From a virus: a DNA stretch of 64,000 nucleotides. The translations under genes and the position numbers were made by a program. Below the pieces are notes generated by a model. The model was not told the DNA's origin. It made no database searches and saw nothing but the letters and a program-made list of their open reading frames with translations. Each line of letters opens with the position of its first letter. Within the stretch, counting starts at the first letter, position 1. Location: positions 1-64,000 of the IMG/VR virus record IMGVR_UViG_3300030101_003058, one strand, 5' to 3'. Shown here piece after piece: positions 2,884 through 56,979 of this stretch.

Positions 2884-3297
2884 TCAAATTTCAGTAAACG
2901 TATATTCAATCCTTGGATTGTGCTTGTCTACTTCGGTTTCTTCAAATGTCTCAACCTTAATGAAGCTATCGTTGTCATCTTCAAGAACTCCGAGGTTCAC
3001 CAGCGCATCATAAAGAAACTTTGTGTTAGCACCAATAAAATTGTGTTTGTCACTCCTACGATTGCTTTGCTTGTACAACTTAGCAGTAACAGTCACAGGC
3101 TTATCAAAGGTAATCTCTCGTTGGCCCGAGTCAATCAGAAGCTGCTCTACGATTTCCATGAACATTACCTTAGCCTTATTCATCTCTTGATAATGAGCAT
3201 TGCGAGTATAGTTCAAGTTGATTCGGAATACTTTAGGTGCTTTGGTTTTTCTAGGGATTTCTATGGTTAGTGGTGTGGAGATTTTTAGTTGTTTCAT
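2884..3297 (-). CDS. RusA-like Holliday junction resolvase
   Basis: A 137-residue protein. Residues about 80-110 read RRSDKHNFIGANTKFLYDAL then a short loop and EDDNDSFI. This resembles the RusA pattern in which an Asp-containing segment precedes the D-x-L helix and a DD-x3-(I/V) catalytic turn. RusA-type enzymes cleave four-way junctions made by recombination and replication, clearing DNA before packaging. It starts 4 bases inside the upstream exonuclease gene (ATGA-type overlap) and is last in the - strand replication operon, just before the shared terminator. Confidence 0.65.
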   Translation of the reverse strand: MKQLKISTPLTIEIPRKTKAPKVFRINLNYTRNAHYQEMNKAKVMFMEIVEQLLIDSGQREITFDKPVTVTAKLYKQSNRRSDKHNFIGANTKFLYDALVNLGVLEDDNDSFIKVETFEETEVDKHNPRIEYTFTEI

Positions 3298-4325
3298 TTA
3301 GGTTCCTTATAAGTATCAATGAACCTACCAATGAACTCTGCTTTATCGTTCTTGTCTCTCAGCATCCACAGCAACCTCAAGTTCTCCCTCATGACATCCT
3401 TCCAAGTTACCTCTGCGGCTTTCTCTGAGACTGCACAAGTGTATTTAAAGGAATCTCCATAGGTTTCCCTGTACTTCTCACAAACAACGTGTATAACGCT
3501 CTCTAGAGATTCTATAGGTGCTCCAGAGAATTCCTCTAGAATCTCGTATGCTGTTACGGCACCAACACGCTTACATCCTTCGATGTTGTCCACCTGCTTA
3601 TCGCCAGCAAGCAATTGCCACGCTAGAAATAAGTGACCATACCCGACGATCTTCTTACCGGAACGCTCAAGGACACCAACGATGTTCTTTGGTGAGTACA
3701 CAGGTTCTTCCATTTGATCCACCAGAAGTACCCATGTGCCTGAGCATTGGCAACTGTCCTTGTCACGGCTAATACATACGGCAGACTGACCTTTGCGTTC
3801 CGCCATTAGAACGACATAATCATCAACCTCAACCGATGCAACAGCTTTGGTAATTTCTGGATATGTCAAAGCATATTTGCGGACAGCTTCTAGGTGATGA
3901 GGCTTTCGCATATCTGAACGGTTTTTCTTGTAACCGTGGATTGTCGCAATCTTCGAGCGGAATGTCTTACCACCAGACTTGGGAGACACATAACCTTTCC
4001 ATTGAGAAACACCAGCAGTCTTGAGCCAACGCTTTAGTTCGCTGTCGAATACTTTATAGCAATCTTCAGCATCTTTGATCTCGTGTTCGACTTCTCTTGT
4101 GACTTTCTCTAGGTCATCATCCGACAAACCGAAGAGTGCATCTCCGAAATCACGAGAATCTTCCAACCAAGTCTTATGCGCTTTAGCACTATCAAAGCGT
4201 CCTACCTCTGTATCCCCAAGCATCACCTTATACCACACTTGTTCACCAGCAGAAGCAGCAGCAAACAATAGCGCATCTAAGTCAAGGTAGCCTATTGTGG
4301 GTTTCTTTGGATTTTCTTCTGTCAT
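3294..4325 (-). CDS. 5'-3' exonuclease (T7 gp6 / FEN-like)
   Basis: A 343-residue protein. The N-terminus IGYLDLDALLFAAA holds the first metal-binding Asp of the FEN/PIN nuclease fold. Residues about 140-155 (IHGYKKNRSDMRKPHH) match the substrate-binding helix of T7-type exonucleases, and later acidic segments (VEVDDYVV, ISRDKDSCQ, LAGDKQVDNIEG) supply the remaining ligands and the helix-hairpin region. The enzyme removes RNA primers and resects ends. The ATG at 4325 is preferred because AGAGGAAC precedes it; an upstream TTG at 4346 lacks that context. A terminator separates it from the preceding gene. Confidence 0.8.
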   Translation of the reverse strand: MTEENPKKPTIGYLDLDALLFAAASAGEQVWYKVMLGDTEVGRFDSAKAHKTWLEDSRDFGDALFGLSDDDLEKVTREVEHEIKDAEDCYKVFDSELKRWLKTAGVSQWKGYVSPKSGGKTFRSKIATIHGYKKNRSDMRKPHHLEAVRKYALTYPEITKAVASVEVDDYVVLMAERKGQSAVCISRDKDSCQCSGTWVLLVDQMEEPVYSPKNIVGVLERSGKKIVGYGHLFLAWQLLAGDKQVDNIEGCKRVGAVTAYEILEEFSGAPIESLESVIHVVCEKYRETYGDSFKYTCAVSEKAAEVTWKDVMRENLRLLWMLRDKNDKAEFIGRFIDTYKEPK

Positions 4326-6445: not shown

Positions 6446-8755
6446 TCAGTGACAGTCTTTCCATGAAAATCCTATCTGATAGTCTCCATCGAAAGGAATA
6501 CGCATACCGTAGTGCTCTGCTGCTTTAACAATAGCTTCTGACATAAGTTCTCCAGCCTTACTGTACCCTGCCAAATACCCACCATCTACATGTGAAATAT
6601 CAGCAATACGTTTACCTTTGACAGAAAACTCCTTGGCTTCATCCTCGGTTTCAAACACATGCGCTTCTACAAGAGATTCACACACCTGCAACTGATATTC
6701 GTCGTGGTAGTGGATCATCTCGGCAGCCTTTCCTTCAATACTAGCATCTTTAAATGGATTGAACAACAGATTCTCTTGTTCTAACCAACGATCTAACATA
6801 ACAGCAGCTTGCTTCATAATGATAACACCACAGGATTGAAACAGAAGGTTTACAAGGCTGTGTTTTGAACGGGCCATGAGTTTCCTTCCGTCAATCCCTA
6901 CGATAAACTTACGCCCTCCTTTCTTTTCCCAGAACTTCTCTACCTTTTCCTTGAGTTGCTTAAGCGGTAAAGCAGCAGACCAGAAATCCTCAAACACTTT
7001 CTTGGCTTTTCCTATGGGCCAATCCATTGACTTTGCAACTTTTGGTGGTTGTGCCCCATAAGAAATTGAGTAGCGAAGAGTTTTTGCTACGTCCCGTGCG
7101 ATCCCCATCTTCTTTGCTGTGACACTATGGATGTCGTTGGGTTTCTCGCCAAGCAATGCCTCAGCATACTCCTGCCCTCCCTCGTAAGGCATAGTGTAGT
7201 GTGCTTCTACCCTAGCTTCAAGTCCAGCAGCATCACAGCCAATCTGATAGAAGCGCTCAGGTACACAGAACATTTCTCGCATAGGTGCTCCATAGACACT
7301 CGTAGGCCGTGGAATATTCGCCACAGTCTTGTGTTGCATCCTTGAAGTGGCAGCACCACAAGTGATTGCAGGGGTCTGTATGCGCCCGTCAATTTCAATC
7401 CTCGGTTGTGCCAAGAACCCTGTTCCTTTGGGACTCAGAATACTGTTCCTACGATGCCTGTAGGTTAACCAAAGAACAACGTCTTTGACAAAACTTACAC
7501 GTTCACCTAGCTTCTCAAGGCTCGGACAAATATCTTTATCCTGATTCACCGTATACTTTGGTGAACTCAAGACTCTCACAGGTCTGTCTCGATCTGCTGT
7601 CATCAACTTCTTATATAGCTCTTTGACATTCCTGCACTGCTGTTGCTCAAGCCTGAACTTTCTGAACGAACTCTCTTTTGTCTCCATACAATAACGATAG
7701 ACAGACTCTTTATACTTTTCGTAAGGGATCTTCTGCTTCTTCGCATTAACCGTAAGATCGTTCTCTGACCAAACCGTAGGCTTCCACCCGAGATCCACGA
7801 GATGTTGCTTAAGATCACTTTGGTTTGCTAGGGTCATCGGCTCTGTATCTTCCAGAGGCTCTTGCGGCAATGGAAGCTCTAAAGTTCTCCCTTTGTACTC
7901 CATGTACCAAGTGTCCCCTTTCTTACCTAAAATACCACCAAGGCGCTCTGCAAACTTCTCTGTATTAGCAGAAGGCTCCCCGTTTTTCTTAAACTGTAGC
8001 TTAGGAGGAACAAACTTCTTCGCTGCTGTCTTGCTAATTTTCTTCTCTGGCAACAAAGGCTCTACACGCTTCTCAATTACCTCCATTTTCTCGTTAAGAT
8101 CATCAAGAGCTTCTTGAGCTTTCTGTTTGTTAAAGCCAAATCCAAAGTGTTCCTGTCTAAAAATAACCTCAGCAATTGCTTGCTCCATACAGATTGCTTT
8201 AGACCAATCCCACTTACCTTGTTCTTCCAGCAAAGCGTTATACACAGCTAAAGTCACTTCTACGTCTTGCTGGCAATATTCCAACATATCCTCGGAGAAC
8301 TCATCCCAAGCATCTTGTTCTTGTCCGTAACTCCCTTTGAGAATCCCTAGTTTCTTACCCCACTCCTTCAAGGAATGCCCTTGTGGACGATCAGGCCAGA
8401 GTGTTCTTGAGATTACAGCCGTGTCTGTGATCCTACAAGGTCTTCCGTCAAGGTAGTCTGTCTCCTCTGGCTTAGACTTTAGCTTGTAATTAACTCCAAA
8501 GTACAACATAAGCACAGGCAGATCATAACCAATGCCGTTGTGGAAAATAACCTCAGTTGCTTCTGAAAATAGTTGCTTTACTTTTTCTTCCGTTAGCGAA
8601 TTTTGATATAGCTTGAACACTTTCCCGCTATCAATATCTTTTGCTACGAGGCAGTGAACCTTGAAACTATCTTTGAGTTTGAACGGATACTTTGAATAGT
8701 CTAGGCTTGTGTGATCGAGCAAACCTGTTGCTTCAATATCTGCTACTAGTCGCAT
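6446..8755 (-). CDS. Family A DNA polymerase with 3'-5' exonuclease (T7-like)
   Basis: A 769-residue protein. Exonuclease motifs: DIEATG at residues 5-10, FHNGIGYDLPVL near 75, and YCQQDVEVT near 165. Polymerase motif A is GCDAAGLEARVEA (about 507), motif B KTLRYSISYGAQP (about 558) and motif C YHDEYQL (about 683). The length fits T7 gp5-type replicative polymerases, which add a host thioredoxin; the insert between polymerase motifs was not examined for that loop. It copies the phage genome with the primase-helicase just upstream and SSB just downstream. Confidence 0.93.
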   Translation of the reverse strand: MRLVADIEATGLLDHTSLDYSKYPFKLKDSFKVHCLVAKDIDSGKVFKLYQNSLTEEKVKQLFSEATEVIFHNGIGYDLPVLMLYFGVNYKLKSKPEETDYLDGRPCRITDTAVISRTLWPDRPQGHSLKEWGKKLGILKGSYGQEQDAWDEFSEDMLEYCQQDVEVTLAVYNALLEEQGKWDWSKAICMEQAIAEVIFRQEHFGFGFNKQKAQEALDDLNEKMEVIEKRVEPLLPEKKISKTAAKKFVPPKLQFKKNGEPSANTEKFAERLGGILGKKGDTWYMEYKGRTLELPLPQEPLEDTEPMTLANQSDLKQHLVDLGWKPTVWSENDLTVNAKKQKIPYEKYKESVYRYCMETKESSFRKFRLEQQQCRNVKELYKKLMTADRDRPVRVLSSPKYTVNQDKDICPSLEKLGERVSFVKDVVLWLTYRHRRNSILSPKGTGFLAQPRIEIDGRIQTPAITCGAATSRMQHKTVANIPRPTSVYGAPMREMFCVPERFYQIGCDAAGLEARVEAHYTMPYEGGQEYAEALLGEKPNDIHSVTAKKMGIARDVAKTLRYSISYGAQPPKVAKSMDWPIGKAKKVFEDFWSAALPLKQLKEKVEKFWEKKGGRKFIVGIDGRKLMARSKHSLVNLLFQSCGVIIMKQAAVMLDRWLEQENLLFNPFKDASIEGKAAEMIHYHDEYQLQVCESLVEAHVFETEDEAKEFSVKGKRIADISHVDGGYLAGYSKAGELMSEAIVKAAEHYGMRIPFDGDYQIGFSWKDCH

Positions 8756-8803
8756 AAGTTCTCCCCGGCTGTCATCGGACGAATTGGCCGTTTGCAGTGT
8801 GTT

Positions 8804-10516
8804 TTAATAAGTCGGTGTGTCTTCCTCAAGTTCTTTCAAATCATTATCTGTGTTCTCCTCGTGATGTTCTCCTGTTGCTTCATAATACTGACGAAGAATC
8901 TCTTTTGTTGGCTCCAGATACTTCCCTGTGTTGACATCAAAGTATACAGGGAAACGTACAGTGTTACCAAACATTCGATCTTCTAGGATCACAAACCAAG
9001 ACATATTACGAACAACCTGTGGAAGTTCAGGCGACTTGTCTCGCTCGATACCTACCATGTAATAGGTGCTTTCCATCATTGCCCTAGAGCCACGGAACTG
9101 TTCGCTGATCACATGACCACCTTGGCTGTGCGGGGTGCCGTTCTGTGGAGCCTTCAGGTGACAGAAGCAATAGTACGTGAACCCAAGGTCTTTAGACAAC
9201 TTAGAGATCTCGTCAGAGAACCTGCGAAGCTCTACGTCTGTCTCCGATGCTGTCATTCCTGCTGTCAGTCGGGTGATAGGATCAATGAAGATATCTTTTG
9301 CTCCTTGAACTACAACGGCGTATGTGATTGCTTTCTTGAGCTTATCCCAAGATGTAGCGCCGTAGCTATCGTAAGTCAGAACCTTGCCTCTGAGAGACAT
9401 TACACCTTCTTTTAGCTCCTCGTGTGTAAAGTAATTCTCAAGTTCTTCGTCTGGAATCTTGTCGCCTTTGTAGTCAAGCCCTTCTAAATTCACCTTGTCT
9501 GGCTTATGGAACAACTTACCATGACGTTTACCGGCAACTTTCCTGAACGTCATTGCTGGCTTTTCTTCCAGTTTAAATACGCCCACAGGTGTATCTTCGT
9601 TTTCAATGATATAGTCAATAAGTTCATTTACAGCTTCGGATTTGCCTATTTTCACCCCGGCCCCAAAATAATACCCCTCGCCTTCTCTGCGACCGTAGGT
9701 TGCCTTCGTCATAGAGGGCCAAGGCCAACCCTTACCCATCTTTGGAAGTGCCGTAGCCTCGTCAAAAACATCCTCTACGTCCACGAAACCATCTGGCTTG
9801 AATTCAATAGGTTTCATCAGTTGCCAGTAGAGGTCTTTCTTGCGCTTCTTGATCAGATATTCGTTTGGATCATTCAAATCTTTCAAGTCAACTACTTTAG
9901 ATTTTGACAGGAAGATTGCTGTCAGATCTTCAGTGGCTTCTTTGCCTTTCTTTATGCCTTTCTTACGTTCCTCCGGTGTTGCCTCATCGTTATCCATAAC
10001 GAACACAACTTCGCTGTAATTATCCAGAGCTTTCTTGTTGTCAGGATATCCTACGCACTTAGCAGCATTACCTGTGCCTAGTGACAGAGATACCACTTGT
10101 GGATCAAACCCCTTCATATCCGAACCAGAAATAAGCGTCCAGTAGACAGCCATTTGATCAAACTCACCTTCGGCTACATACACACGCTTTCCGGTGACAT
10201 TCTCACGAAACCCAAATAGACGACTCTCTGCACCTACTTTGCCAATCACTGTGAAGTGGTACTTGTCACTCTTGGGCTTAGTAAAGTCTCGCTTCTTATA
10301 GCCTGTAATCTCTCCTTTTTGATTGTGGTACGGGAAATACACAGCTTCAATAGTCTTCCCGTCTTCCTGAGACAGACCTACCTTCACTCCAAACTTCTCA
10401 AGAACTTCTTTAGGAATCCTACGGTCTGGTAGGTTAGCCGAAGGATATTCATTAATCTCTTCCACCGTCTCTTTTGTTTTCGCCACTACAAACTCCTCGT
10501 TAAAGTTATAACCCAT
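8804..10516 (-). CDS. Primase-helicase (T7 gp4-like, no zinc domain)
   Basis: A 570-residue protein. The TOPRIM domain shows VYVAEGEFDQM (about residue 112) and VVFVMDNDEA (about 172). The RecA-like helicase domain has Walker A GAGVKIGKSE (about 285) and a Walker B segment IFIDPIT (about 408). The N-terminus lacks the Cys4 zinc finger that T7 gp4A uses to read primer sites, so it resembles the short gp4B form; priming may need another protein or a host enzyme. The start ATG is preceded by AAGGAACTGCA. The gene is next to the polymerase in the same operon. Confidence 0.88.
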   Translation of the reverse strand: MGYNFNEEFVVAKTKETVEEINEYPSANLPDRRIPKEVLEKFGVKVGLSQEDGKTIEAVYFPYHNQKGEITGYKKRDFTKPKSDKYHFTVIGKVGAESRLFGFRENVTGKRVYVAEGEFDQMAVYWTLISGSDMKGFDPQVVSLSLGTGNAAKCVGYPDNKKALDNYSEVVFVMDNDEATPEERKKGIKKGKEATEDLTAIFLSKSKVVDLKDLNDPNEYLIKKRKKDLYWQLMKPIEFKPDGFVDVEDVFDEATALPKMGKGWPWPSMTKATYGRREGEGYYFGAGVKIGKSEAVNELIDYIIENEDTPVGVFKLEEKPAMTFRKVAGKRHGKLFHKPDKVNLEGLDYKGDKIPDEELENYFTHEELKEGVMSLRGKVLTYDSYGATSWDKLKKAITYAVVVQGAKDIFIDPITRLTAGMTASETDVELRRFSDEISKLSKDLGFTYYCFCHLKAPQNGTPHSQGGHVISEQFRGSRAMMESTYYMVGIERDKSPELPQVVRNMSWFVILEDRMFGNTVRFPVYFDVNTGKYLEPTKEILRQYYEATGEHHEENTDNDLKELEEDTPTY

Positions 10517-21622: not shown

Positions 21623-22379
21623 AATTTCACCCGTCAGAGGAATCGACTGAGCGTTCAATGGAATTTCGGTGGGGGAATCAACTGCTGGCAGAGGTTTTCA
21701 TTTGTGTGCTGGCGAATTTTCAACTCCGGCAGACACTTCTGTTTTCTTCCGGATCGAATTTTGACTTTAAAATCAATGAATTACGACTTCCGGCACTTGT
21801 TTTCATCCGAGCCAGCTTTATGTATCGCTCAAAAAATTTCTAGAGAATCTACTTTTCATTTTTCATAGCTCAGATTTTAGTTAGCAAAACTATTAATTAG
21901 CATAAACAACTATTACATAAGCAACCTAACTATCTCGCTAGTTGGCAAAAGTTAGCTAAAGCAATTGTTTGAATTACTATTGATTGCCAGAATGTAGGGA
22001 CAGAATCGCAAGAATGATAAAAGAAATGTCTAATACTTTTTAGGACTAACAGGCGGGACTCTATAGATCAAAAGGTAATACGGAATTTTTTCCAGCGAGG
22101 GTGATTATCTCCTGCCTTATATTGCGCAGCCTGTACCTGAAAGAATAGTTGAACGGATACCAGAAAGCAAGCGAGTAGTTGAAAATAATTTATTGCTACT
22201 TTCTAATCCCGCGCATGCGTGACTAACACAAAAGAAAATCAAAAGTCAACAACGCTAAAATCATGCCATTAATTGCCTGTCGTGCTACTCAAACATTACA
22301 ATTTTTGCTATATTCCAGGATGCTAGGGAAACCCATGTTTTCGAGAACAAAACGTTGTAAGCATTTTTGCCTGTTACAC
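21623..22379 (+). other. Gene-free AT-rich stretch
   Basis: No gene is convincing; a 61-codon frame at 21658 lacks a binding site and a protein-like composition. Between 21870 and 21965 TAGTT(A/G)GCAAAA occurs twice among other AACTA/TTAGC repeats. Between 21690 and 21830 TTTTC with CCGG or CCGA occurs repeatedly. A promoter begins at its right end. Confidence 0.45.
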
Positions 22380-22408
22380 TTGCGCTGGCTTTCTGGTTTT
22401 ACTATAGT
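22380..22408 (+). promoter_or_regulatory. Sigma-70 promoter
   Basis: TTGCGC (22380-22385), 17-base spacer, TATAGT (22403-22408), 38 bases before the next ATG. The first promoter of the 22.4-25.5 kb module. Confidence 0.65.
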
Positions 22409-22445
22409 AGACCCAACGTCAAACGATAGAGCCAAGGGGTTTACT

Positions 22446-22805
22446 ATGATTATCAACGTTTCAGCCTACGGGATTAGCTCACAGTACAAAGTAGACTTTT
22501 CACGCGCCGATAAGGTGGCATTAGAGACTTTCCTTGCTACCAAGGGTGTATATCTGTCAGATCGTCAAGTAAACGCTTTTGTAGACTCTGGCGAAGGTGT
22601 ACAGTTCGATGGGCATGGTCGGAAGTGGATCGCAGCTACTACCGTGCGCGACATTACAAACGAGGTGATGACCGATAAGGCGCGCCAGATTATCCGCAAG
22701 TTTTTGCGGAGCATTACCGCGAACGCTACTAGTAAAACACTAGTGTCGCGTGCTATGAAAGTTAAGAAAGTAGCGCAAGCTTACAACCTTGAACATATGC
22801 TCTAA
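22446..22805 (+). CDS. Hypothetical protein
   Basis: 119 residues from ATG 22446 (AAGGGG upstream), starting MIINVSAYGISSQYKVDFSR. The first half is alpha/beta with an FDGHGRKWIAA turn, the second a long basic helix (SKTLVSRAMKVKKVAQAY). First gene of a module whose style differs from the neighbours. Function unknown. Confidence 0.65.
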   Translation: MIINVSAYGISSQYKVDFSRADKVALETFLATKGVYLSDRQVNAFVDSGEGVQFDGHGRKWIAATTVRDITNEVMTDKARQIIRKFLRSITANATSKTLVSRAMKVKKVAQAYNLEHML

Positions 22806-22816
22806 GGGGGTTTGAC

Positions 22817-22924
22817 ATGAAAATTACTAAAGCAGAATACGATCGTTTAGGCGGTATGAGAAATTCTAAGTTATACCGCAAACAATCCAAAAACGGTCGT
22901 TGGAATTACTACAAGTCTAAATAA
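22817..22924 (+). CDS. Tiny basic protein
   Basis: 35 residues starting MKITKAEYDRLGGMRNSKLY, ending in Lys/Arg/Tyr-rich sequence. AAGGGGG lies just upstream. It sits between two genes and is followed by a terminator-like hairpin. Function unknown. Confidence 0.55.
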   Translation: MKITKAEYDRLGGMRNSKLYRKQSKNGRWNYYKSK

Positions 22925-22933
22925 AAGTTTTTG

Positions 22934-22971
22934 CCCCTGATTGGACTACAAAGCCTTGAAGGGGATTTTTT
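22934..22971 (+). terminator. Probable intrinsic terminator
   Basis: CCCCT (22934-22938) and AGGGG (22960-22964) with a 21-base loop, followed by ATTTTTT. The stem is short, so efficiency is uncertain. Confidence 0.45.
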
Positions 22972-23023
22972 ATCTATGAGATATTAAACCCATCGAAACG
23001 CAAAACCTAAAAGGTACAGACCT

Positions 23024-25450: not shown

Positions 25451-25473
25451 AACAAACAAATAACTAAAGCATT

Positions 25474-25510
25474 GCCCCGGATTCTCTAAAGGATTGCCGG
25501 GGCTTTCTTA
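25474..25510 (+). terminator. Intrinsic terminator ending the + block
   Basis: GCCCCGG (25474-25480) and CCGGGGC (25497-25503), a perfect 7-pair GC stem, then TTTCTT. Confidence 0.8.
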
Positions 25511-25736
25511 TGTCTGATCAACACGTGACAAGGGTCATACAGGGCTACACAAAAGACTTTCCACAGGTAGCCTATGGGATAGCATAGGGATAGGCTAAAG
25601 GCTTGTCATAAGCGCTCTCAGGCTGTTCTATTAGATGCTTTAGATTGTCATTGTTTAGCTGCAATTCTCTTATGTGTTATTGGACTAAGTATCTACTTTA
25701 TTATCTCTTTGGCCTACTTCGGTTAAACCACCCAAG

Positions 25737-25831
25737 TTATCCACAGAACACTCTGACTTATCCACAGGCAACAATAGCAATCTAAAGTTATCCACAAGTA
25801 TGATCTAAAGTTATCCACAGACTTATCCACA
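25737..25831 (+). promoter_or_regulatory. Cluster of five DnaA boxes
   Basis: TTATCCACA occurs exactly at 25737, 25758, 25788, 25811 and 25823, all in the same orientation, at spacings of 21, 30, 23 and 12 bases. TTATCCACA is the high-affinity box for bacterial DnaA. A DnaA-dependent start of replication, or titration of host DnaA, is inferred. Confidence 0.85.
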
Positions 25832-25981
25832 GGATGATCTGAAGGTATACACCTGTATACAATAGTATCATTGGCACAACTATTGCTTATCAATAGCAAC
25901 CTAATATTATCTTAAGCAAGCTATCTAAATTATTCCGAAGGTATGCCGGGGGGGATCTTATGTAGTTCTATTGTGTGCTAG

Positions 25982-25997
25982 TGTTTCACGTGGAACG
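25982..25997. promoter_or_regulatory. parS-like site
   Basis: TGTTTCACGTGGAACG around a CACGTG centre; 14 of 16 bases match the chromosomal parS consensus TGTTTCACGTGAAACA. ParB binds such sites next to oriC in many bacteria. It lies 150 bases from the DnaA boxes. Confidence 0.6.
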
Positions 25998-26744
25998 TTC
26001 TAGGGGATAGTTTTGGTTAGCTATGGTTGCCAGTGTATAGCCAAGGGATTTAATAGAGTTATCCTTTCAGGGATTACTATTGATATTTTGGGATTTCATT
26101 AGGATGCTATATAGGCGGCTCCGGACTGTCTTAACAGGTCTTGACCAAATCTGAGGAAATACCAGTACAACCCTTGGTACACAAGGGATTAGCACAAGAA
26201 TGCTGTTGATATTTACCAGAAAGAAAATCTAGTGGAATTTTTAGCGCCTATAGTAATCTGTAGAAGAGTAGGGAATTCTAACAAAATCAACAGTTTATAC
26301 TTATATAGCACAAGTATATAAATCAAAATAAATCAAAAATTAACTGTTGACTTTCCTTTGACAACCATAAGTTGACACAGAGAACACACATGAGTGTTGT
26401 TGGTGTATACTTAAGAGGATCTGTTGAGTAGCACAGGTAGGTACACCCCTGCTCTCCTTGCAGTCGATCAGGTAGGATATTTTTCAGATGTGCTTTAGGT
26501 AGGACTTTTGAAATGCAGGTGATATTTCTGGAGAAAATTTAGGAAGGTTCTAAAATATCAAAGGTATCCTTAAGAAGGGAGAATTTATTATTCTTATTTC
26601 TCCCTTTCTAAAGCTACACTTTAGCAACCTAAGTTTCTATATAAAATACCTCTGTATTCTAGGGCACTAAAATAAAGTACCTTAGAAATCAATAGTTTAC
26701 AGAGGAAATTTGCTGATTTTAGACGTTTTGAATCGTAGAAACGT

Positions 26745-28061
26745 CTAAGTGTATTTTCCAGACATCCAATCGTACATTCCATCACGTACTCTTGAGCTTG
26801 GAATATAGATATTCACAGGTTCATCATTACGTACTCTACTTCGATAGATCATCTGTAGAGCTTCAGCAAGCATGTACCTAGTAGGATCTGGTGCAAACTC
26901 ATCACCCTTACGTTTGAGGTGTTTGTATATCTCAGGACTCATGTAAGGATTATACACATAAGCAATCTTGGATACGCCAGCATAACTGTTGACAGCTTTG
27001 ATGTTGTGTGGAACAAACCTTCGTGTATACCCCTTACCTTTAAGCAACCCTGAACCACCTTTGAGACAAGTCCACATACGTTCTTCCATTGGTGCATAAC
27101 CATATGTATTATTGTTGAAGAAGTTGATCAGGTTTTGCTTGGTGGTGTCTACAACAGCATGTGATCTCTGGAAGGCTTTCTGGTGAGTTGCTGAGAAGGC
27201 TTCTAAACGTTCTCCCACTCGATTCATCCTTTCGTTCTCTACGATTCTAATGAGATCAAAAGGATTCTCAGGAATCATAATACCTTTCTTGTGTTCGTAG
27301 GGTATACCATAGCACATAAGGTATTTCTGGAACACACTACCTTCAAACATATAGGTCATAACTTCAACACGATCAAAAGCAGTGATGAACTCTATTGGAT
27401 ATTCCCACATAAACAACTTTCGATCCCCTGTGTCGTCATCAACAAGTAGAAGAGAACCGTTCTTGCACATTCTCTTGATACGTTGTTCCCAAGATAACCC
27501 TGTGCCATCTATGTCAGATTCTTCATCATCAGAACTTGCATCATCTGGTGCTACCCACCTGAGTAGTCCAAAGTCATCTTCCTCAACAAACCCACTGTTC
27601 AAAAGCATCATCCTACGTTCCTTGCGAAGACGTAGTTGCTCAATACACTCAAGTTCCTCATCAACAATAAGAGTGTAGCCGTTGTCCTTGATTGCTTGTC
27701 GTGTTTCTGGTGTGAACATCTTGAGGGCAGCATGTGTGGTTACGATGTCTCTGCCCTCTTGTACCAGCCTTTCGATGTCTTGTACCTTGTTTCTATAGCC
27801 AGCAATGGGGTGGTGGAACTCCCTACCAGAAGCATTACAGCCTGTACCGTTGTAGATCACACGCCCGCGTTCGTCTGTGGCAGGTTTTTTCTTATCACCA
27901 GATTTCTCACAAGGGATTGTACCAGCATACCTGTGACACTCATCTAGAAAGGGTGCTACAACAATATATCTGTTTTCTTCTGGCGCGTTGTTAATGGTTT
28001 CTATCATTCTTGTGGACTTTCCGGTGCCCATCAAGTGGTCGTGTACGATTACATTAGTCAT
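26745..28061 (-). CDS. P-loop helicase-like ATPase
   Basis: 438 residues from ATG 28061 (GAGGGAAGGT upstream). Walker A is HLMGTGKSTRMI at about residues 9-20 and a DExx-type Walker B IVDEELE at about 135. A Cys-containing loop lies near 50-75, and an acidic low-complexity patch (DDASSDDEESDID) near 178-190. The rest fits a superfamily 2 helicase-like protein but no C-terminal motif set was confirmed. It is the last gene of the - block, next to the origin-like region, so a role in origin opening or recombination is possible. Confidence 0.6.
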   Translation of the reverse strand: MTNVIVHDHLMGTGKSTRMIETINNAPEENRYIVVAPFLDECHRYAGTIPCEKSGDKKKPATDERGRVIYNGTGCNASGREFHHPIAGYRNKVQDIERLVQEGRDIVTTHAALKMFTPETRQAIKDNGYTLIVDEELECIEQLRLRKERRMMLLNSGFVEEDDFGLLRWVAPDDASSDDEESDIDGTGLSWEQRIKRMCKNGSLLLVDDDTGDRKLFMWEYPIEFITAFDRVEVMTYMFEGSVFQKYLMCYGIPYEHKKGIMIPENPFDLIRIVENERMNRVGERLEAFSATHQKAFQRSHAVVDTTKQNLINFFNNNTYGYAPMEERMWTCLKGGSGLLKGKGYTRRFVPHNIKAVNSYAGVSKIAYVYNPYMSPEIYKHLKRKGDEFAPDPTRYMLAEALQMIYRSRVRNDEPVNIYIPSSRVRDGMYDWMSGKYT

Positions 28062-40638: not shown

Positions 40639-42888
40639 TTAAAGTTTACAGGATTCACAGTCTTCTTCATCCTCTTGCTCTTGCACTTTCCCATTGATCG
40701 AGGTGTAGCTGTTGATATAGTAACGAGTCTTCATGCCCATTTTGGTCATGTATAGATAATCCGAAATCATCTCTTTAGTTGTTACAGCATCAGAACCAAT
40801 GATCTTTCTGTAGAGGTCCGCAGAAATCGCTTGGTCTGTCCATTTTTGAACAATAGCATATACGTCTACAAGATCTTTCGTTGGTATCTCCCAAGAGCTT
40901 TCGTACCACTTCTGCAATCTTTCACCTTCAGGAGCAGCCCAGTAGACAACATTACTAAGATCAGTCTTCATCATAGTCAACTCGCGGATCGGATAGATAC
41001 CGTTGGTTGTACCAGACGCTTTTGAGCTACTTTCCCCCGGCATGTGATTGATCAAAGAACTGTTCCGAATACCACCGTTGTCAATAATGTCTCGCCTAAG
41101 ACTTTCCCAGTCAAATGTCAGATCAGAAGAAGCAACATTATCCACATTACGGTTATACGTGTCAATAGGCAACCAGCCTTCGGGCCACTTTGTTCGATCC
41201 ATCCAAGGCGCTACACCGAGTTCTTTGGAAAGCCTCAGGGATGCCTTGATTACGCTGTAGGCGTGTTGCTCACCAAGTTTATTGATTAACTCTTTACCTT
41301 CTGGAGAACTATAGTTTACTTTGTTTTTTGCAAGGTAGTGTGCCATACCCATCAGACCAATGCCAGCATTTAGACGAGACTTTGCTGTTACCCCAACATG
41401 CGGCAACGGATAGTCTGCCTTGTGTATACATTTGTCCACCATTAGTAAAGCATAGTAGGCAGCATCTTCGTATTGCTTTTGATCTTTGATATTAGCTGCA
41501 TTGATAGCACCTAAGCTACACATCGCCACCTCACCAACGCGCTCTGGATTGTCAGAGTACAGATCAGACATGGACTCGTATGCTTTTGTCGGCAATGATG
41601 TCTCTGTGCACAAGTTTGAGGTATACACAGGATCTTTGTGTGGAGTATGCCGATTCATCTCATCAGCCCACATCATGTAGGCTTTACCTGTCTCGTAAGC
41701 CTCGTTTAATTGAGACAGAAGAATCTCACGAGCACTTACCCAAGTTTTCTTAAACTTATTATTGCTTTCGTATTTATTGTAGACTTTTTCGAACTCTTCC
41801 GCATCCCCCGAGAACATTGCCGCTGTCAAATCTGGTGCAGTGAAGACATTAAACAAGAATATATCTTCGTTCTTGGCAACCTTCTTGGCAAAAAACTTGT
41901 TCTGAAGCATTGCATAGTCAAGACCACGGATTTGTTTGTCCTTGGTGGTCATGGGATTCTTCAGTTTGCTAATGTCAACAGCTTCTGGATCAAATGCGCT
42001 AAAGTAGGTTGTGCAGGCACCTCCACGTCCAGCTTGTAGGTTCGCATGTACCGCCCCATCAAGCGACCTGTAGTACGGGAGCTTACCTTGGTGTTTGATT
42101 GCACCGTTGCGGACAGGATCACCAACAGAGCGTGACTCGATGTACGATCCAATACCTGCGCTCATGTACGTCATTGTGTACGCAATATGATCACCTACTG
42201 CCAAGGACGTAGCAGAATCACCAGATTTATAAATACAGCAACTCGCAAGCCCATTGAAAGGCGTACCGAGGTTGATGTAGTTAGGTGTCGGCGCATTGAT
42301 ACGTTTACACGAGAAATTATCATACCATGCTTTTACATCATCTAACTTACGTTCTTTCGCCTGATCTTCGGCAAGAGCCATTGCCATTCTCATGTATACA
42401 AACTGCTGTGACTCGTATTCTTCACCGGTGACACGGTTGCGTAGCGAGTATTTCTTCCGAACCTGTTCAAGCTCAAAATGAGCAGCTTTAAAATCTCTCT
42501 TGTGGTCAATGAACTTATCAACTTGCTCGTATTCTTCCTCAGAGTAGTTGAGAGTTTTCATCAGACCCTTGCTTTGGAGTTTCTCATGCAGTTCTTTAAT
42601 AGTTGGTGGTGTACCGTTGTACAGCTTCTTGTTCAAAAGCGCAGCATAAAGTCTACCTGCCATTCTGTTATAAGACCAACTATTGTTATCCAAACAAGTC
42701 TTGATAAGACGCTCCTGTAAAAGTTCTGAGGGGCAGGTTTCGGGGCAAGTGCTTACTGTGTGGATTACAACGCTACTCCAGTCTACGTAGCGACCTAAAG
42801 TCTTACTTGCCCACTCACCCCATTTGTTTACTTTAGCGGGTTGAAACTCCTCAGTACTACCGTCCCGCTTCTTAATGTATTTTATCAC
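40639..42888 (-). CDS. nrdA: Ribonucleotide reductase class Ia, alpha subunit
   Basis: 749 residues from a GTG with GGAGGATTTGA upstream. An N-terminal ATP-cone (IKKRDGSTEEF...) is followed by the catalytic barrel: LASCCIYKSGDS (first redox Cys), SNLCTETSLPT (catalytic Cys and Glu, about residue 428) and the C-terminal CESCKL shuttle pair. It reduces NDPs to dNDPs with NrdB. The GTG start and tight spacing suggest co-regulation with thyX upstream and nrdB downstream. No intron is seen. Confidence 0.95.
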   Translation of the reverse strand: MIKYIKKRDGSTEEFQPAKVNKWGEWASKTLGRYVDWSSVVIHTVSTCPETCPSELLQERLIKTCLDNNSWSYNRMAGRLYAALLNKKLYNGTPPTIKELHEKLQSKGLMKTLNYSEEEYEQVDKFIDHKRDFKAAHFELEQVRKKYSLRNRVTGEEYESQQFVYMRMAMALAEDQAKERKLDDVKAWYDNFSCKRINAPTPNYINLGTPFNGLASCCIYKSGDSATSLAVGDHIAYTMTYMSAGIGSYIESRSVGDPVRNGAIKHQGKLPYYRSLDGAVHANLQAGRGGACTTYFSAFDPEAVDISKLKNPMTTKDKQIRGLDYAMLQNKFFAKKVAKNEDIFLFNVFTAPDLTAAMFSGDAEEFEKVYNKYESNNKFKKTWVSAREILLSQLNEAYETGKAYMMWADEMNRHTPHKDPVYTSNLCTETSLPTKAYESMSDLYSDNPERVGEVAMCSLGAINAANIKDQKQYEDAAYYALLMVDKCIHKADYPLPHVGVTAKSRLNAGIGLMGMAHYLAKNKVNYSSPEGKELINKLGEQHAYSVIKASLRLSKELGVAPWMDRTKWPEGWLPIDTYNRNVDNVASSDLTFDWESLRRDIIDNGGIRNSSLINHMPGESSSKASGTTNGIYPIRELTMMKTDLSNVVYWAAPEGERLQKWYESSWEIPTKDLVDVYAIVQKWTDQAISADLYRKIIGSDAVTTKEMISDYLYMTKMGMKTRYYINSYTSINGKVQEQEDEEDCESCKL

Positions 42889-45296: not shown

Positions 45297-45789
45297 TGGG
45301 TTCTCCAGATTGTTCAAATAGAAGCTCTAAAAATGGCTCCACGAATTTCAAGGGCTTCCTCACCTTGCTATCTTTGTCGATGATAGAACCAGTAGGTACG
45401 GCATCTTCAAAACCTGTGTAATCAGCACGAACTACACGCAAACCTTCGTAACCTTTTTGTGCAAGAGCATCAAGTGAATCTTGACAGTTCTCTAGTTCAT
45501 CACCTATAAGAGTTTTTGTGCTGTTACTCGCGTTCACTAGAGCAAGCCCATCTTCAATCGGAAGATCGTTGCGATATGCGAAATCTAGCGTAATGATGAG
45601 AATATCCGCACAAGCGTCTAGCATGGCTACACGATCATTTGTATCTACAGCTTCTTGTAACTCCTTGAGTTCTTCTTTGATAAATTTGATTGAATTCTTT
45701 TGTGCTTTCTTTGTTTGCTTACCTCGGGGAATGCCCCATGAATAGAAAATGTCCAACGTGTCGGACAGTGGGTTTTCAAAGTTATCCAT
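45289..45789 (-). CDS. MazG-like nucleotide pyrophosphohydrolase
   Basis: 166 residues. EELKELQEAVDTNDRVAMLD then ACADILIIT (about 38-66) fits the all-alpha NTP-PPase pattern E-E-x-x-E ... E/D-x-x-x-D. These enzymes hydrolyse noncanonical NTPs or dUTP, or lower ppGpp in some phages. Here the nucleotide-gene neighbourhood favours dNTP sanitation. It begins at the stop of an HNH gene. Confidence 0.75.
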   Translation of the reverse strand: MDNFENPLSDTLDIFYSWGIPRGKQTKKAQKNSIKFIKEELKELQEAVDTNDRVAMLDACADILIITLDFAYRNDLPIEDGLALVNASNSTKTLIGDELENCQDSLDALAQKGYEGLRVVRADYTGFEDAVPTGSIIDKDSKVRKPLKFVEPFLELLFEQSGEPNE

Positions 45790-46628
45790 TAAAGCTCCCT
45801 TATAATTGATTCGTAATTTTCGTTCGGGATGATGTAGTCTTCTACGCAGTCTCCAAGAACAGATCTGATGTCTTCACCTAGCGTTTTTATACGGTAGTGT
45901 GCGTGTTTGTAACCAATCCCAACGCGCTCAGAAGCACTTCTCAGTGACATCCATTCACCAGAAATCTTAATTTTCCAAGTGACTCTTTTATTAAGACTTT
46001 GCTCTATGCCGTTAGACCACTTACAGTTCTCCGGAGAGTAGTCTTTATTCACATCTACGCGGTCTAAACTACAATCATTTGGGCACTCGCCCATATCGGA
46101 CAGAAAAGTATCAAACGATTCTCTCCATCTTTCACAGACTCCGATTCCTCTTGCGCCGTATAAATAATACCTATTGTTGTTTGGCTCGTAACACCTGCGG
46201 CGCATGTTCAACCAACTGGAATAGGTTCTGTCACCACCACAAGACTTTCCGTGTCTCTTGTTCCACGGAACTTTTGTTTTAATCCAACAGTCTCTGCATT
46301 TACTAGAAGATTTCCTGCCTCTTATTTGGTTCGGGGGATAGATGCCGCTGTGACCGCACTCCGTGTGTATAAATTTGTACTCGCCAGATCCCACATACCC
46401 AAGAGCAATAGCCCCGTTTATAATCTTACCAGTATAATCCTTCGTTGGTTTATACTTAGAGATACAACCGCAAGACTGCACTGCTCCACTTCTCAAATGA
46501 TTTTGAAAAACGTCTTTGGTGCTGTTACATATCAGACATTTACACGTAATTGTTCTTGGTTCCCTGTCAGGATTTTGCATATCTTCAGGCAACACACGTA
46601 AGTAATCTGAGTTATTCTCAATATCCAC
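45789..46628 (-). CDS. HNH homing endonuclease with zinc-knuckle N-terminus
   Basis: 279 residues from a GTG with AAGGAGATTGGGCGG upstream. The N-terminus holds C-x-C-x-x-C and further Cys pairs (CKCLICN, SCGCIS, KCRDCW). The nuclease part is YSSWLNMRRRCYEP, ARGIGVCERW, SFDTFLSDMGECP, SLDRVDVNKDYSPENCKWS, the same family as the 20.86 kb gene. The C-terminus is a helix-turn-helix-like segment. It lies between the MazG-like and metallophosphoesterase genes without visible damage to either. Confidence 0.8.
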   Translation of the reverse strand: MDIENNSDYLRVLPEDMQNPDREPRTITCKCLICNSTKDVFQNHLRSGAVQSCGCISKYKPTKDYTGKIINGAIALGYVGSGEYKFIHTECGHSGIYPPNQIRGRKSSSKCRDCWIKTKVPWNKRHGKSCGGDRTYSSWLNMRRRCYEPNNNRYYLYGARGIGVCERWRESFDTFLSDMGECPNDCSLDRVDVNKDYSPENCKWSNGIEQSLNKRVTWKIKISGEWMSLRSASERVGIGYKHAHYRIKTLGEDIRSVLGDCVEDYIIPNENYESIIREL

Positions 46629-50554: not shown

Positions 50555-50785
50555 CTATTGTAAATCTATCCCAAGCATCTCCACCACATCACCACCAATA
50601 TTATCAAGATCATTGAAGTAGCGATACATAGAATACTCATGAACATTCTCAAAATGCTTCAGTTCACACCTTCCGTGTTTCTTTGCGTGTTCACTGAAGG
50701 CTCCTGAGATGTTGTTGCTGGCACCTGCTCTCCAGAGATCAAATTCTGTTTCAATGTAAAAACTTGGGACTGTTGGTTGTTTCAT
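50555..50785 (-). CDS. Small hypothetical protein
   Basis: 76 residues starting MKQPTVPSFYIETEFDLWRA; AAGGAGAAC upstream. ATGA overlap with the HNH gene upstream. Function unknown. Confidence 0.6.
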   Translation of the reverse strand: MKQPTVPSFYIETEFDLWRAGASNNISGAFSEHAKKHGRCELKHFENVHEYSMYRYFNDLDNIGGDVVEMLGIDLQ

Positions 50786-51402
50786 GTGTTCTCCTTTTGT
50801 TTGTCTTTGGTGCTTATGCTTGGTTTTCCATGGCGTTTTGTGTAACCTAGTTGTGGATTTTTGGCGAAAAACTCTTCACGGGCTTTAGCGGCCTCCTCTA
50901 TAGTGTTGTAATAACCAAGACCTTTGCGACTACCATCAACACTAATCTGAGCCTTCCACTTTTCCAGTTTTTTGCACCAACATACGCCCGTAACACCGGA
51001 TGTGTTGTCCTTTCTAATTCTTTGGTTCCTGACATTGATTTTTTGAGGTACATCCCTTAGATTCTCAATTTTGTTATTTTCAGGGTTTCCGTCAATGTGG
51101 TCAATATGATGTTCTGGCATATTACCATAAGTCAACACCCAAACAATTTGATGTGCAGTTATTCCCTTTATTCCACCAGCACCTACTACCAAGTACCCAT
51201 GCCCTTGTCTGCCGAATTTCACAATTTTCCCTGCACGCTCCCGAAGAAAATTTCGATATCTGCCTTTATACTTGTTCCACCTCGGGTCAATCCAAGATTT
51301 CCAGCAGATTGCTCCTGTATCAGCATCATAGTCAAAAAATGCTTTAATCACACCTTCTTTTGATCTATCAAGTAATTCTCCGGTGTTTTCTACGTCTTGC
51401 AT
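50782..51402 (-). CDS. HNH homing endonuclease with AP2-like domain
   Basis: 206 residues, AAGGAGATATTC upstream. The nuclease core is ITAHQIVWVLTYGNMP, HHIDHIDGNPENNKIENLRD (H-x-D-H ... N) at about 95-120. The AP2-type DNA-binding domain follows: NTSGVTGVCWCKKLEKWKAQ then GYYNTIEEAAKARE. It is the first gene of the long - strand block after the 51.4-52 kb control region. Confidence 0.85.
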   Translation of the reverse strand: MQDVENTGELLDRSKEGVIKAFFDYDADTGAICWKSWIDPRWNKYKGRYRNFLRERAGKIVKFGRQGHGYLVVGAGGIKGITAHQIVWVLTYGNMPEHHIDHIDGNPENNKIENLRDVPQKINVRNQRIRKDNTSGVTGVCWCKKLEKWKAQISVDGSRKGLGYYNTIEEAAKAREEFFAKNPQLGYTKRHGKPSISTKDKQKENT

Positions 51403-53594: not shown

Positions 53595-56500
53595 TTGAGT
53601 AACGAGAGACACGTACTGAAGCCGCAACCGGGACCACAAACAGATTTCCTTAAAGCCGATGAAACTTATGTTTTCTACGGCGGTGGTGCTAAGTAACACT
53701 GGTTCCACCTTAAAAACACCTGTCTAATCGGGGAAACCTACGGTTGATTTATCAACTAGGGCAATCCTGAGCGAATATCGTAATCAATATAAACTCTAAG
53801 ATTTATCTAAGGAGAAACAGAAATGCCAGACATTAAGCCGATATACGGTTACCCAAACTATTCAGTATCTTCGGATGGTGTTGTTTGGAGCAACATTACG
53901 GGGAAGCCTGTAACTGAGTATATTACCGAATCTAGCCCCACTGTCAAAAGGGGTTCCGGTTACCATAGGGTACAGCTTTACAAGAACGGTAAAGGTAAAA
54001 AGTTCTTTGTTCATCGTCTTGTAGCGTTAGCCTTTATATCAAACGATGACCCAGAGGCCAACTGCGTTAACCACAAAAACGGTAATAAAGCAGATAATTC
54101 TGTGGAAAATCTTGAGTGGGTTACACACCGCCAGAATGTAGATCACGCAGTTGAAACAGGTCTGCAACTCAAAGGCGAGGCAGTAGGCACTTCCATCTAC
54201 GAGGAACAAATGGTTCACAAGGCTTGTCAGATGATTGCTCGGGGTGATTTATCACTTCAAGACATCTCTGATGAGACGGGACTTGGTTACCACACAGTGT
54301 CTGATCTGAAGAATCGGCGCTCATGGAACCATATCACCGAACAATATGATTACGATAAGGCCAAGAGACTACCGAGGTCGCGCAGAACTGCGTAAGATAG
54401 TAGGGTAGGCTGCAAGTGCAGCCGAAACGGCAGGAACGTGTTTACACGTTAAGATATAGTCCGATACTCGGGGAAACCCGAGAGTGACCTCACGAGTCAC
54501 ATAACAGCCACGGGTGGTGGCAAGAGTTGGGCCATACTTGCAGATAATCTCAAGTACATACATGACCCAAATTATTTCTCAGTGTTCTTCAGGGAAACCA
54601 CGACCCAGATAGAATCTGGACTCTGGCCCGAGGCCCTGAAGATGTATGAACCGTTCTTGAAATATCAGAGCGGCCCAAAGAAAGGTAAACTTCTTCCCGG
54701 TGTCAAAATCCGAGATAAAGACAAAACAATAATCTGGCCCTCGGGTGCCAAGACACGTTTCAGTTACCTTCAGAATGACCGTGATGCTAACCAGTGGTAC
54801 GGTACGGAGCTTTCTCGGGTGTATATGGACGAGTTCCAGCATTTCTCCGAAGTGCAGTTTACCGTACTTCGTTCGCGTCTGCGTTCTAAAGCTAAGTTCC
54901 CATCTGCAATGCGCTGTACAATGAACCCAGACAGCGGACACTTTGTTCTTGAGTTTATCCGAAGATATCTTGACGAAGATGGTTATCCTATCAGGGATTA
55001 CTCAGGTAAACGCGCATGGTTCATTATGCAAGGCGGGGATATCTATACGGATTGGGATTTTGATGCTCTGCAAGAAAAGTTCCCAGATCAGACACCACAG
55101 AGCTATACGTATGTCCCGTCGGTGCTCTCTGATAACCAAGAGTTGTTAAAACTTGAGCCGGGATATGCAGATATCCTTAAGTCTTTGCCTGATGTAAAAC
55201 GCAGGCAGCTTCTGGAAGGTTGTTGGTTCGTGAGCGACAACAATGCGATGTACTTTGATCGCACTTGGTTACACAGGATAAACTCTGTCCCTCCAAATTG
55301 TAAAGCAGTCCGCGCATGGGATAAAGCATCTGAGGAACCGAACCCTTCCCTCCGACATCCTGACTACACTGCATCTGTTAAGATGTACAAGGATAAGCAC
55401 GGGAATTACTATTTGTGTGAGGGCACAAGGTTCCGCAAGCAGTCTGGTGAACGGGATATGATGATTCTGAATCAAGCAGAGCATGATGGTAGGGATTGCT
55501 ACATTGTGTTTCCGATAGATCCGGGATCTTCTGGAAAATCTGAGTTCCGACACTCAACTAAAACATTTCTGGAAGAAGGCTTTGTAGTAAAGCGTGACCC
55601 TATGGCCCCGACAAAACCGAAGGTACTGAAGTTTGAGCCATTTGCAACAGCGGCTCAGAACGGTCAAGTATATTTGGTTGAGAAGGAATGGGATTCTGAT
55701 AATCTCAAGGCTTATTTGGATGAGCTTGAGTCATTTACAGGGGAACGTTCGAATGCTTCAAGAAAAGACGATTAACAACTTTGTTACCACAGCAAACCCA
55801 GTCGTCTATAAACTCCTTTAATTGCTGGAAACTCCAGTCAGACTTTGAGTAGGATATTGCACGGTAACGTAGCAACGAACCCTGAAAACCTCAAAGGTAT
55901 GGACAATCAGCAGACAATAGTGTAGACTCTGTAAGTAGAGATATAAATTTATTTACGGAGGAATTATTTTGGAAATTAAAAAAGTAAGAGGTTTTGAAAA
56001 CTATTATGTGAGTAAAAACGGCGATGTGTTTTCTACATGGCACGGGACCATGAAGAAAATGACCTTACAACTTCATAAGAGCGGTTACTACAGCATTCGA
56101 CTGTCTAGAGGGTTGCGGGATTACCAAGGTTTTATGGTGCACAGGCTTGTAGCAGAAGCCTTTATCGAAAACCCGGAAGATTTACCTACCGTAAACCACA
56201 AAAATGGTATTAAAACTGACAACCGTGTTGAGAACCTTGAGTGGATGACATATAAAGAAAACAACCGCCACGCATGGGATATTGGCTTGTGCGATGGTCG
56301 CCGGGGTGTCAACAACCATTTCTCTAAAATATCAGAGGGTGATGTTCGAACTATTTGTGAGCTTTTGCAAGAAGGTAAGCAGAGTAGACAAGAGATTGCC
56401 GATTGTGTTGGTGTCAAATACAACATAGTCAGCTCTATTGTGGAACGTAGGGATTGGGCACACATAAGTCAGGACTACGACATCCCAAAGCCGCGTAAGA

Positions 56501-56979
56501 TTGCTAAGAAAACTTCTGACGATGTTGCAATAGAAGTCTGTAAACTTCTCAATCAAGGTGTTCGTAATAAAGACATTTGCAAGAAGCTGCAAGTTAATGC
56601 AGGTTTTGTTACGTCTATAAAAATCGGTAGACGTTATAAACATATTTCCAAAATATATTTACACTAAGTTTCAACGACCATCGAAAGCACACGAAAGTGT
56701 AGTTAGTAGAGTAGGCTTAAGCAAGCCGAAACTAGGAGAGGAGTCTTGAAAGACTCCTAAGATATGGTCTGATCTGCATAGAGATATGCAGCAGCACTTA
56801 GAGTGCGGGGAGAGCGTAGCGAACTCTCCTGAACATCAATGTGGGTAGATGCAACAGCATCAGCATTCAACAGCCTAAGCCGAGAAAAAGTAATCCCCCA
56901 ATTCTCCTTAGGCGAATTTTCCAGTAACAGTCCCACAGCTTTCAAAACACACAAGGATTCCGTAGATTACTACGAATAA
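53595..56979 (+). CDS. Terminase large subunit, split by two group I introns
   Basis: Three exons: 53595-53690 (32 codons, TTG start with GGGAGG upstream), 54513-55772 (420) and 56842-56979 (45), giving 497 residues. Exon 1 ends FYGGGA and exon 2 opens GGGKSWAIL, so splicing rebuilds Walker A. Walker B is SRVYMDEFQHF. The nuclease domain shows IVFPIDPGSSGKS. Exon 2 ends SRKDD and exon 3 begins WVDATASAFN, rebuilding the third nuclease Asp motif. The ATPase drives DNA into the prohead and the nuclease cuts it. Frame is kept at both junctions. An unspliced RNA gives no functional protein. Confidence 0.87.
53691..54512 (+). ncRNA. Group I intron 1 in the large terminase gene
   Basis: 822 bases. 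The 5' exon ends GGTGGTGCT (53682-53690), which pairs with GGTTCCACC (53701-53709), placing the splice-site U opposite G. Core strings GGGGAAACCTACGG (about 53738) and GGCAATCCTGAGC (about 53780) look like P4 and P6-side conserved elements; AAGATATAGTCCG (about 54450) resembles the R/S region. The intron ends in G at 54512. It interrupts the P-loop between codons A and G. It carries an HNH gene. Confidence 0.85.
53823..54395 (+). CDS. HNH homing endonuclease in intron 1
   Basis: 190 residues, AAGGAGAAACAGAA upstream. N-terminal NUMOD4-like segment (IYGYPNYSVSSDGVVWS), HNH core FFVHRLVALAFI and CVNHKNGNKADNSVENLEWV (about 60-102), and a C-terminal helix-turn-helix (SLQDISDETGLGYHTVSDLK) for DNA recognition. 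It would cut an intron-less terminase gene so that the intron is copied in. Confidence 0.88.
   Translation: MPDIKPIYGYPNYSVSSDGVVWSNITGKPVTEYITESSPTVKRGSGYHRVQLYKNGKGKKFFVHRLVALAFISNDDPEANCVNHKNGNKADNSVENLEWVTHRQNVDHAVETGLQLKGEAVGTSIYEEQMVHKACQMIARGDLSLQDISDETGLGYHTVSDLKNRRSWNHITEQYDYDKAKRLPRSRRTA
55773..56841 (+). ncRNA. Group I intron 2 in the large terminase gene
   Basis: 1069 bases. The 5' exon ends AGACGAT (55766-55772), which pairs perfectly with GTCGTCT (55801-55807), again with a U-G at the splice site. GGACAATCAGCAGACAAT (about 55900) matches the Q-region style and AAGATATGGTCTGATC (about 56758) the R/S region. The last base is G at 56841, and TGG opens exon 3. It lies in codons for the terminase nuclease active site and carries an HNH gene. 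Confidence 0.87.
55969..56667 (+). CDS. HNH homing endonuclease in intron 2
   Basis: 232 residues from a TTG with GGAGGAATTAT upstream. NUMOD4-like N-terminus (VRGFENYYVSKNGDVFST), HNH core MVHRLVAEAFI and TVNHKNGIKTDNRVENLEWM, then two helix-turn-helix repeats (SRQEIADCVGVKYNIVSSIV; NKDICKKLQVNAGFVTSIKI). It differs enough from the intron 1 enzyme to suggest independent arrival. Target: the exon 2/exon 3 junction, inferred. Confidence 0.87.
   Translation: MEIKKVRGFENYYVSKNGDVFSTWHGTMKKMTLQLHKSGYYSIRLSRGLRDYQGFMVHRLVAEAFIENPEDLPTVNHKNGIKTDNRVENLEWMTYKENNRHAWDIGLCDGRRGVNNHFSKISEGDVRTICELLQEGKQSRQEIADCVGVKYNIVSSIVERRDWAHISQDYDIPKPRKIAKKTSDDVAIEVCKLLNQGVRNKDICKKLQVNAGFVTSIKIGRRYKHISKIYLH

Follow-up and report, generated by a model that had tools for sequence, protein, structure and literature searches.

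A DnaA-box array and a lone parS site at the putative genome ends of a probably lytic myovirus

Introduction

In E. coli, datA and other DnaA-box titration loci are non-coding and contain several strong boxes, at a distance from any origin. DnaA boxes and/or centromere sites are also found on phages; for instance, the phage-plasmids P1 and N15 carry such sites and encode their own Rep and/or Par proteins. For ParABS mycobacteriophages, Par proteins of their own have been described (PMC7157519). In lytic T5 and its relatives, DnaA boxes are present in the terminal repeat and the injection-stop region (PMC13250531, which cites Heusterspreute 1987 for the injection stop signal). Lytic phages were already known to carry DnaA-box clusters; the boxes in the end zone of T5 have been on record for decades and their role is unsettled. 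An earlier note on the DNA analysed here had linked DnaA boxes in phages to plasmid-like prophages such as P1; that they are essentially a feature of such prophages is not supported, as lytic T5 and its relatives as well as many viral contigs have them.

The locus described here lies in a window of 64,000 nucleotides, the first part (bases 1-64000) of a viral record of 87,036 bp, and contains five exact DnaA boxes and a parS-like palindrome. It resembles T5 in that exact DnaA boxes are present in non-coding DNA, here, by synteny, a probable end zone, of a phage that is probably lytic. However, in T5 each terminal repeat has three exact boxes, which are spread out amid many repeats and palindromes, and there is no parS, while the phage studied here has five tightly spaced boxes plus a parS. 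With the oriC-parS region and the ParABS systems of bacteria, it shares a DnaA-box array near a perfect chromosomal-type parS, but parB was not found, the only candidate unwinding element is at a distance from the boxes, the array is not conserved, and the arrangement is phage-borne. As in datA, several strong boxes are present in non-coding DNA and, apparently, not at an origin; it differs from datA in having no IHF-like site inside the array and in being part of a multicopy phage genome. Pseudomonas phage phiK7A1, the portal of which is 39% identical, has four exact boxes within 75 bp in a non-coding gap, which lies 3.2 kb from the end of its record, but two of these boxes are direct and two inverted, and there is no parS. 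Finally, the phage differs from the phage-plasmids in that no Rep or Par genes were found among the proteins scanned.

Results and Discussion

Profile matches identify a family A polymerase, a T7-gp4-type primase-helicase, PhoH and a terminase, and the relatives of the portal and capsid are Pseudomonas, Aeromonas and Felix O1-type myoviruses. The phage is probably a lytic myovirus and a marine-type bacterial virus. The polymerase and primase-helicase named in the earlier note are confirmed by these profiles, and its statement that the primase lacks a zinc domain is consistent with a profile match that begins at position 101 of 801; the proposed gp2.5-like SSB has no PHROG or Pfam match. Among the subset of proteins scanned, there are no integrase, repressor, replication initiator or partition genes. 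A helicase query returned no viral relatives and a capsid query no relatives in bacterial genome contigs; among the matches listed, plasmid capsid matches reach only 23-37% identity.

The array and the parS are both located in a gap of ~1.3 kb (25451..26744), the largest non-coding stretch, on which gene blocks converge from either side (+ genes at 13.3-25.45 kb, - genes at 26.75-51.4 kb). The ORFs in this gap are all short and lack a good ribosome-binding site, and there is no Rfam match; a coding or RNA element was rejected on these grounds, and the array does lie in gene-free DNA, as had been claimed. The + block ends with a probable terminator read from the sequence (25467..25510, + strand), in which a GC-rich hairpin (inverted GCCCCGG/CCGGGGC) is followed by a T-rich tract and which was not reported by a consensus scan. 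The first gene to the right of the gap (26745..28061, - strand) belongs, by profile match, to the phrog_2467 family, the function of which is unassigned. The gene order with polymerase-primase (-), divergent switch, small + genes, gap and small - genes is the same around the physical ends of PseuGes_254, which have been mapped and carry direct terminal repeats (PMC11512268); we checked that the 628-bp repeat of this phage is identical at both record ends. The ends of PaP1, which were mapped by run-off and have a 1190-bp terminal repeat (PMC3652863), also fall between convergent small-gene modules. Because it is syntenic with the mapped ends of both phages, the gap is probably the genome-end zone.

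The five boxes are exact matches to TTATCCACA on the + strand (25737..25745, 25758..25766, 25788..25796, 25811..25819 and 25823..25831). Their starts are spaced by 21, 30, 23 and 12 bp, with boxes 4 and 5 forming a tandem pair 12 bp apart, and the sequences separating them differ from one another. The reported five exact boxes in 95 bases and in a single direction are thus borne out, as is the claim that the cluster is not random: shuffled versions of the 64-kb window had a mean of 0.73 exact boxes and a maximum of 3, never reaching six, and in a first-order Markov model the probability of at least four further boxes within 95 bp is ~3e-14. The sole other exact box of the record, at 41138, is inside the ribonucleotide reductase (RNR) gene. 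A chance origin of the array is excluded. With its five exact boxes in 95 bp, the array has the box clustering of an oriC-type DnaA origin, and its obvious ligand is predicted to be host DnaA. A 24-mer across the pair of boxes 4 and 5 is present in 30 bacterial contig stretches, most of which have more exact boxes within 500 bp; these stretches span several phyla and, therefore, give no clue to the host.

Located 152 bp downstream of the array, a parS-like palindrome, GTTTCACGTGGAAC (25983..25996), exactly matches the consensus GTTYCACGTGRAAC of the chromosomal-type core, a signal that is absent from the earlier note. It occurs once in the whole record, with chance expectations of 0.0013 per 87-kb record and 2e-5 in the gap. 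No ParB_N domain was detected in the phage record. Although the palindrome is that of a chromosomal-type parS, here as well as in the sister phage described below, neither replicon has a recognisable cognate ParB, and we assume that the partner is host ParB. The parS is missing from 12 related or comparison isolates, 14 RNR relatives and 8 further phages; within this lineage, it is thus confined to a pair of closely related phages. The unusual part of the find is the parS together with a DnaA array and without a ParB; in the literature searched, we found no published report of a lone phage parS.

The second phage of this pair, the sister phage G001 (IMGVR_UViG_3300025881_000025), is syntenic, with a terminase that is 81% identical at the amino acid level and an RNR that is ~80% identical. 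The corresponding gap carries, at the same position, a fully palindromic parS, GTTCCACGTGGAAC, for which the chance expectation is 2e-5 and which differs from GTTTCACGTGGAAC by a T-to-C change that is still within the consensus. Outside the parS, the two gaps have largely diverged, with aligned blocks of only 54, 34 and 24 bp. In the syntenic gap of G001, there is no DnaA box at up to one mismatch, and no ParB_N was found in this phage. In other words, the parS is common to both phages and the boxes are not, and the array lacks the conservation in close relatives of an essential element of an oriC-type origin.

Clusters of exact boxes are also present in T5, Slocum (terminal repeat), Squash, Forrest and phiK7A1, and at least 120 stretches of viral contigs have three boxes. 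Of the clustered boxes in viral contigs, 73% do not fall in any ORF of at least 80 aa, compared to a background of 20%. A general association of DnaA boxes and parS in viral contigs was rejected; the pair is rare, because a parS is close to an array only in L121, as an exact match, and in L043, where a parS with one mismatch is near a DnaA cluster. In L121 (IMGVR_UViG_3300025617_000871, 3215-3363), of which L335 is a near-copy, five boxes are arranged around the perfect 16-mer parS TGTTTCACGTGAAACA. This array lies between early-type genes and the endolysin and TerL genes, both named by eye from the sequence and TerL with additional search support. L121 is a marine phage unrelated to the main phage and is an independent occurrence of the DnaA-parS pair. 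In the TerL group of L121, three or more boxes precede TerL in 18 of the 50 loci, compared to 0.011 boxes per kb downstream of this gene. On the terminase tree, the presence of an array, defined as two or more boxes, changes at least eight times, a count that recombination could inflate, and does so even between near-identical terminases. Members without boxes have other short repeats at the same place. Among large viral contigs with a parS, some of which may be fragments or include host DNA, 42 of 50 have no ParB_N at E<=0.01. A context-restricted parS pattern has 90 matches in viral contigs compared to ~1 by a rough chance estimate, for which the collection size is approximate and there is no control pattern. 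Lone parS sites across viruses are, at this point, a lead and not a result.

Based on these data, we tentatively suggest that the array and the parS make up an accessory site that would capture host DnaA and ParB at the probable genome ends of this myovirus, which is itself probably lytic. We do not propose that the site is the normal or obligatory origin of phage replication; the presence of sites for DnaA as well as ParB, though there is no recognisable ParB gene, points to capture of both host proteins rather than to a normal origin. In this model, host DnaA would occupy the array cooperatively, and host ParB would load at parS and then spread onto phage DNA. Each new phage copy would bring five more strong sites for DnaA along with another site for the loading of ParB and, as phage copies rise, both proteins would be drawn off the host oriC-parS region. 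As a result, new host initiations would be blocked and/or phage DNA would be attached to the host segregation apparatus; the parS alone cannot tell sequestration from such attachment. The array is dispensable because it is absent in the sister phage and gained or lost at least eight times in an unrelated marine group, and this dispensability, the perfect sites, their non-coding placement and the missing ParB fit with capture. Also, array and parS are far above chance, and the position of the parS is kept in the sister phage despite the diverged gap. The independent pair in L121, the mostly non-coding placement of clustered boxes in viral contigs and the high share of parS-bearing large viral contigs in which ParB_N was not detected also speak for capture. 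Against capture, the parS is restricted to two close relatives in this lineage and other viral clusters are mostly without a nearby parS, while the location in the largest non-coding gap would be expected under any hypothesis.

The synteny of the gap with the ends of PseuGes_254 and PaP1, which are mapped and carry terminal repeats, also speaks for an injection or end element like that of T5, at which DnaA (and ParB) would bind the end zone during DNA entry and pause, hold or anchor the incoming DNA. However, these same ends in PaP1 and PseuGes_254 have neither boxes nor parS, and the ends of the main phage are themselves placed by synteny. In T5 and its relatives, the terminal repeat and the injection-stop region do contain exact boxes (PMC13250531), and Microbacterium phage Squash has three boxes at most 0.7 kb from its left end, but the dense foldable repeats and palindromes of a T5-type injection stop signal are not found here, where DNA folding is ordinary (z-score -0.37) and palindromes are few. 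Together with the turnover of the array in relatives, this leads us to regard an element of this type as unlikely.

We similarly see little reason, and slightly less, to expect a DnaA-dependent origin, in which host DnaA would melt the gap and start the first fork by loading either the DnaB of the host or the helicase of the phage. Besides five perfect boxes and a nearby parS that recalls the chromosomal oriC-parS layout, the gap has an IHF-like site, AATCAACAGTTTA, followed by the AT-richest part of the gap (26285..26350, + strand; up to 82% AT), which is the only candidate unwinding element. This tract is, however, ~460 bp from the boxes, the nearer flanks of which are only moderately AT-rich, and the only IHF-like sites in the gap, at 26285 and 26687, are both outside the array. 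Forks leaving the gap would meet genes head-on on both sides, cumulative GC skew has a local maximum at the gap and, thus, a turn of the terminus type and not of the origin type, and the phage helicase is of the T7 type. An essential DnaA origin is disfavoured because of the distant AT-rich tract, the head-on genes and the skew maximum, and because the boxes are missing in the syntenic gap of G001 and often lost in the L121 group; the same observations count against the suggestion of the earlier note that DnaA loads the first fork, whereas its alternative, that the boxes soak up DnaA and so stop host initiation, may hold. The Ori-Finder origin claimed for PseuGes_254 contains no TTATCCACA at up to one mismatch.

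The rapid turnover of the array among relatives, and the other short repeats that boxless members hold at the same place, would suit a relic or a locally amplified repeat without a present function. This is improbable, as none of the five boxes has a mismatch, the intervening sequences are not alike, and an exact parS is kept in two genomes that have diverged. Least probable of all is plasmid-like (episomal or carrier-state) maintenance, in which the boxes would serve as replicator and partition would rely on host ParB at parS: origin-like boxes and a centromere site do share one gap and host ParABS could act in trans, but we reject a plasmid-prophage on the lack of ParB_N and the results of the capsid query (no relative in bacterial genome contigs; plasmid matches of 23-37% identity among those listed), and no initiator, integrase or repressor was found among the subset of proteins scanned.

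Extending the capture of host DnaA and ParB beyond this phage, we consider it possible, if somewhat doubtful, that some lytic phages carry a miniature of the host oriC-parS layout, i.e. a DnaA array and a lone parS without ParB, at their genome ends, that this arrangement arose independently in at least two lineages, and that it would capture the initiator and the centromere protein of the host, either stopping host replication and segregation or hitching phage DNA to the segregation apparatus. Five perfect boxes beside a perfect host-type centromere in a phage with no ParB of its own, and the presence of this pair in an unrelated phage, suggest that DNA sites alone may let viruses make use of two chromosome-maintenance proteins of the host. 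The sites fit in a compact, testable fragment of ~300 bp, and natural controls are available in the sister phage, which has the parS but not the boxes, and in marine phages with near-identical terminases and the array present or absent.

Additional observations

In the 52.6-kb contig L143 (IMGVR_UViG_3300035498_000798), in which ParB_N is absent, nine boxes are present at 8527-9741 and a parS follows ~800 bp later. In the main phage, a second poorly coding stretch is located in the early + block (21650-23020), with ORFs without good ribosome-binding sites and a 419-bp gap.

Group I intron matches at 53651-54483 (E 9e-4) and 56559-56791 (E 2e-4), both sub-threshold and below the gathering score, surround HNH-type genes near a terminase ORF without its N-terminal part (its profile match begins at position 229 of 642). 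Introns may split the terminase gene; the terminase of G001 seems to hold a further insertion. Four related ORFs (53823-54395, 55969-56667, 64569-65261 and 68151-68897, in record coordinates) all match one place in the sister contig and probably form a family of homing-type endonucleases that is dispersed among the structural genes. In two other ORFs, at 50782-51402 and 45789-46628, HNH domains were confirmed by profile.
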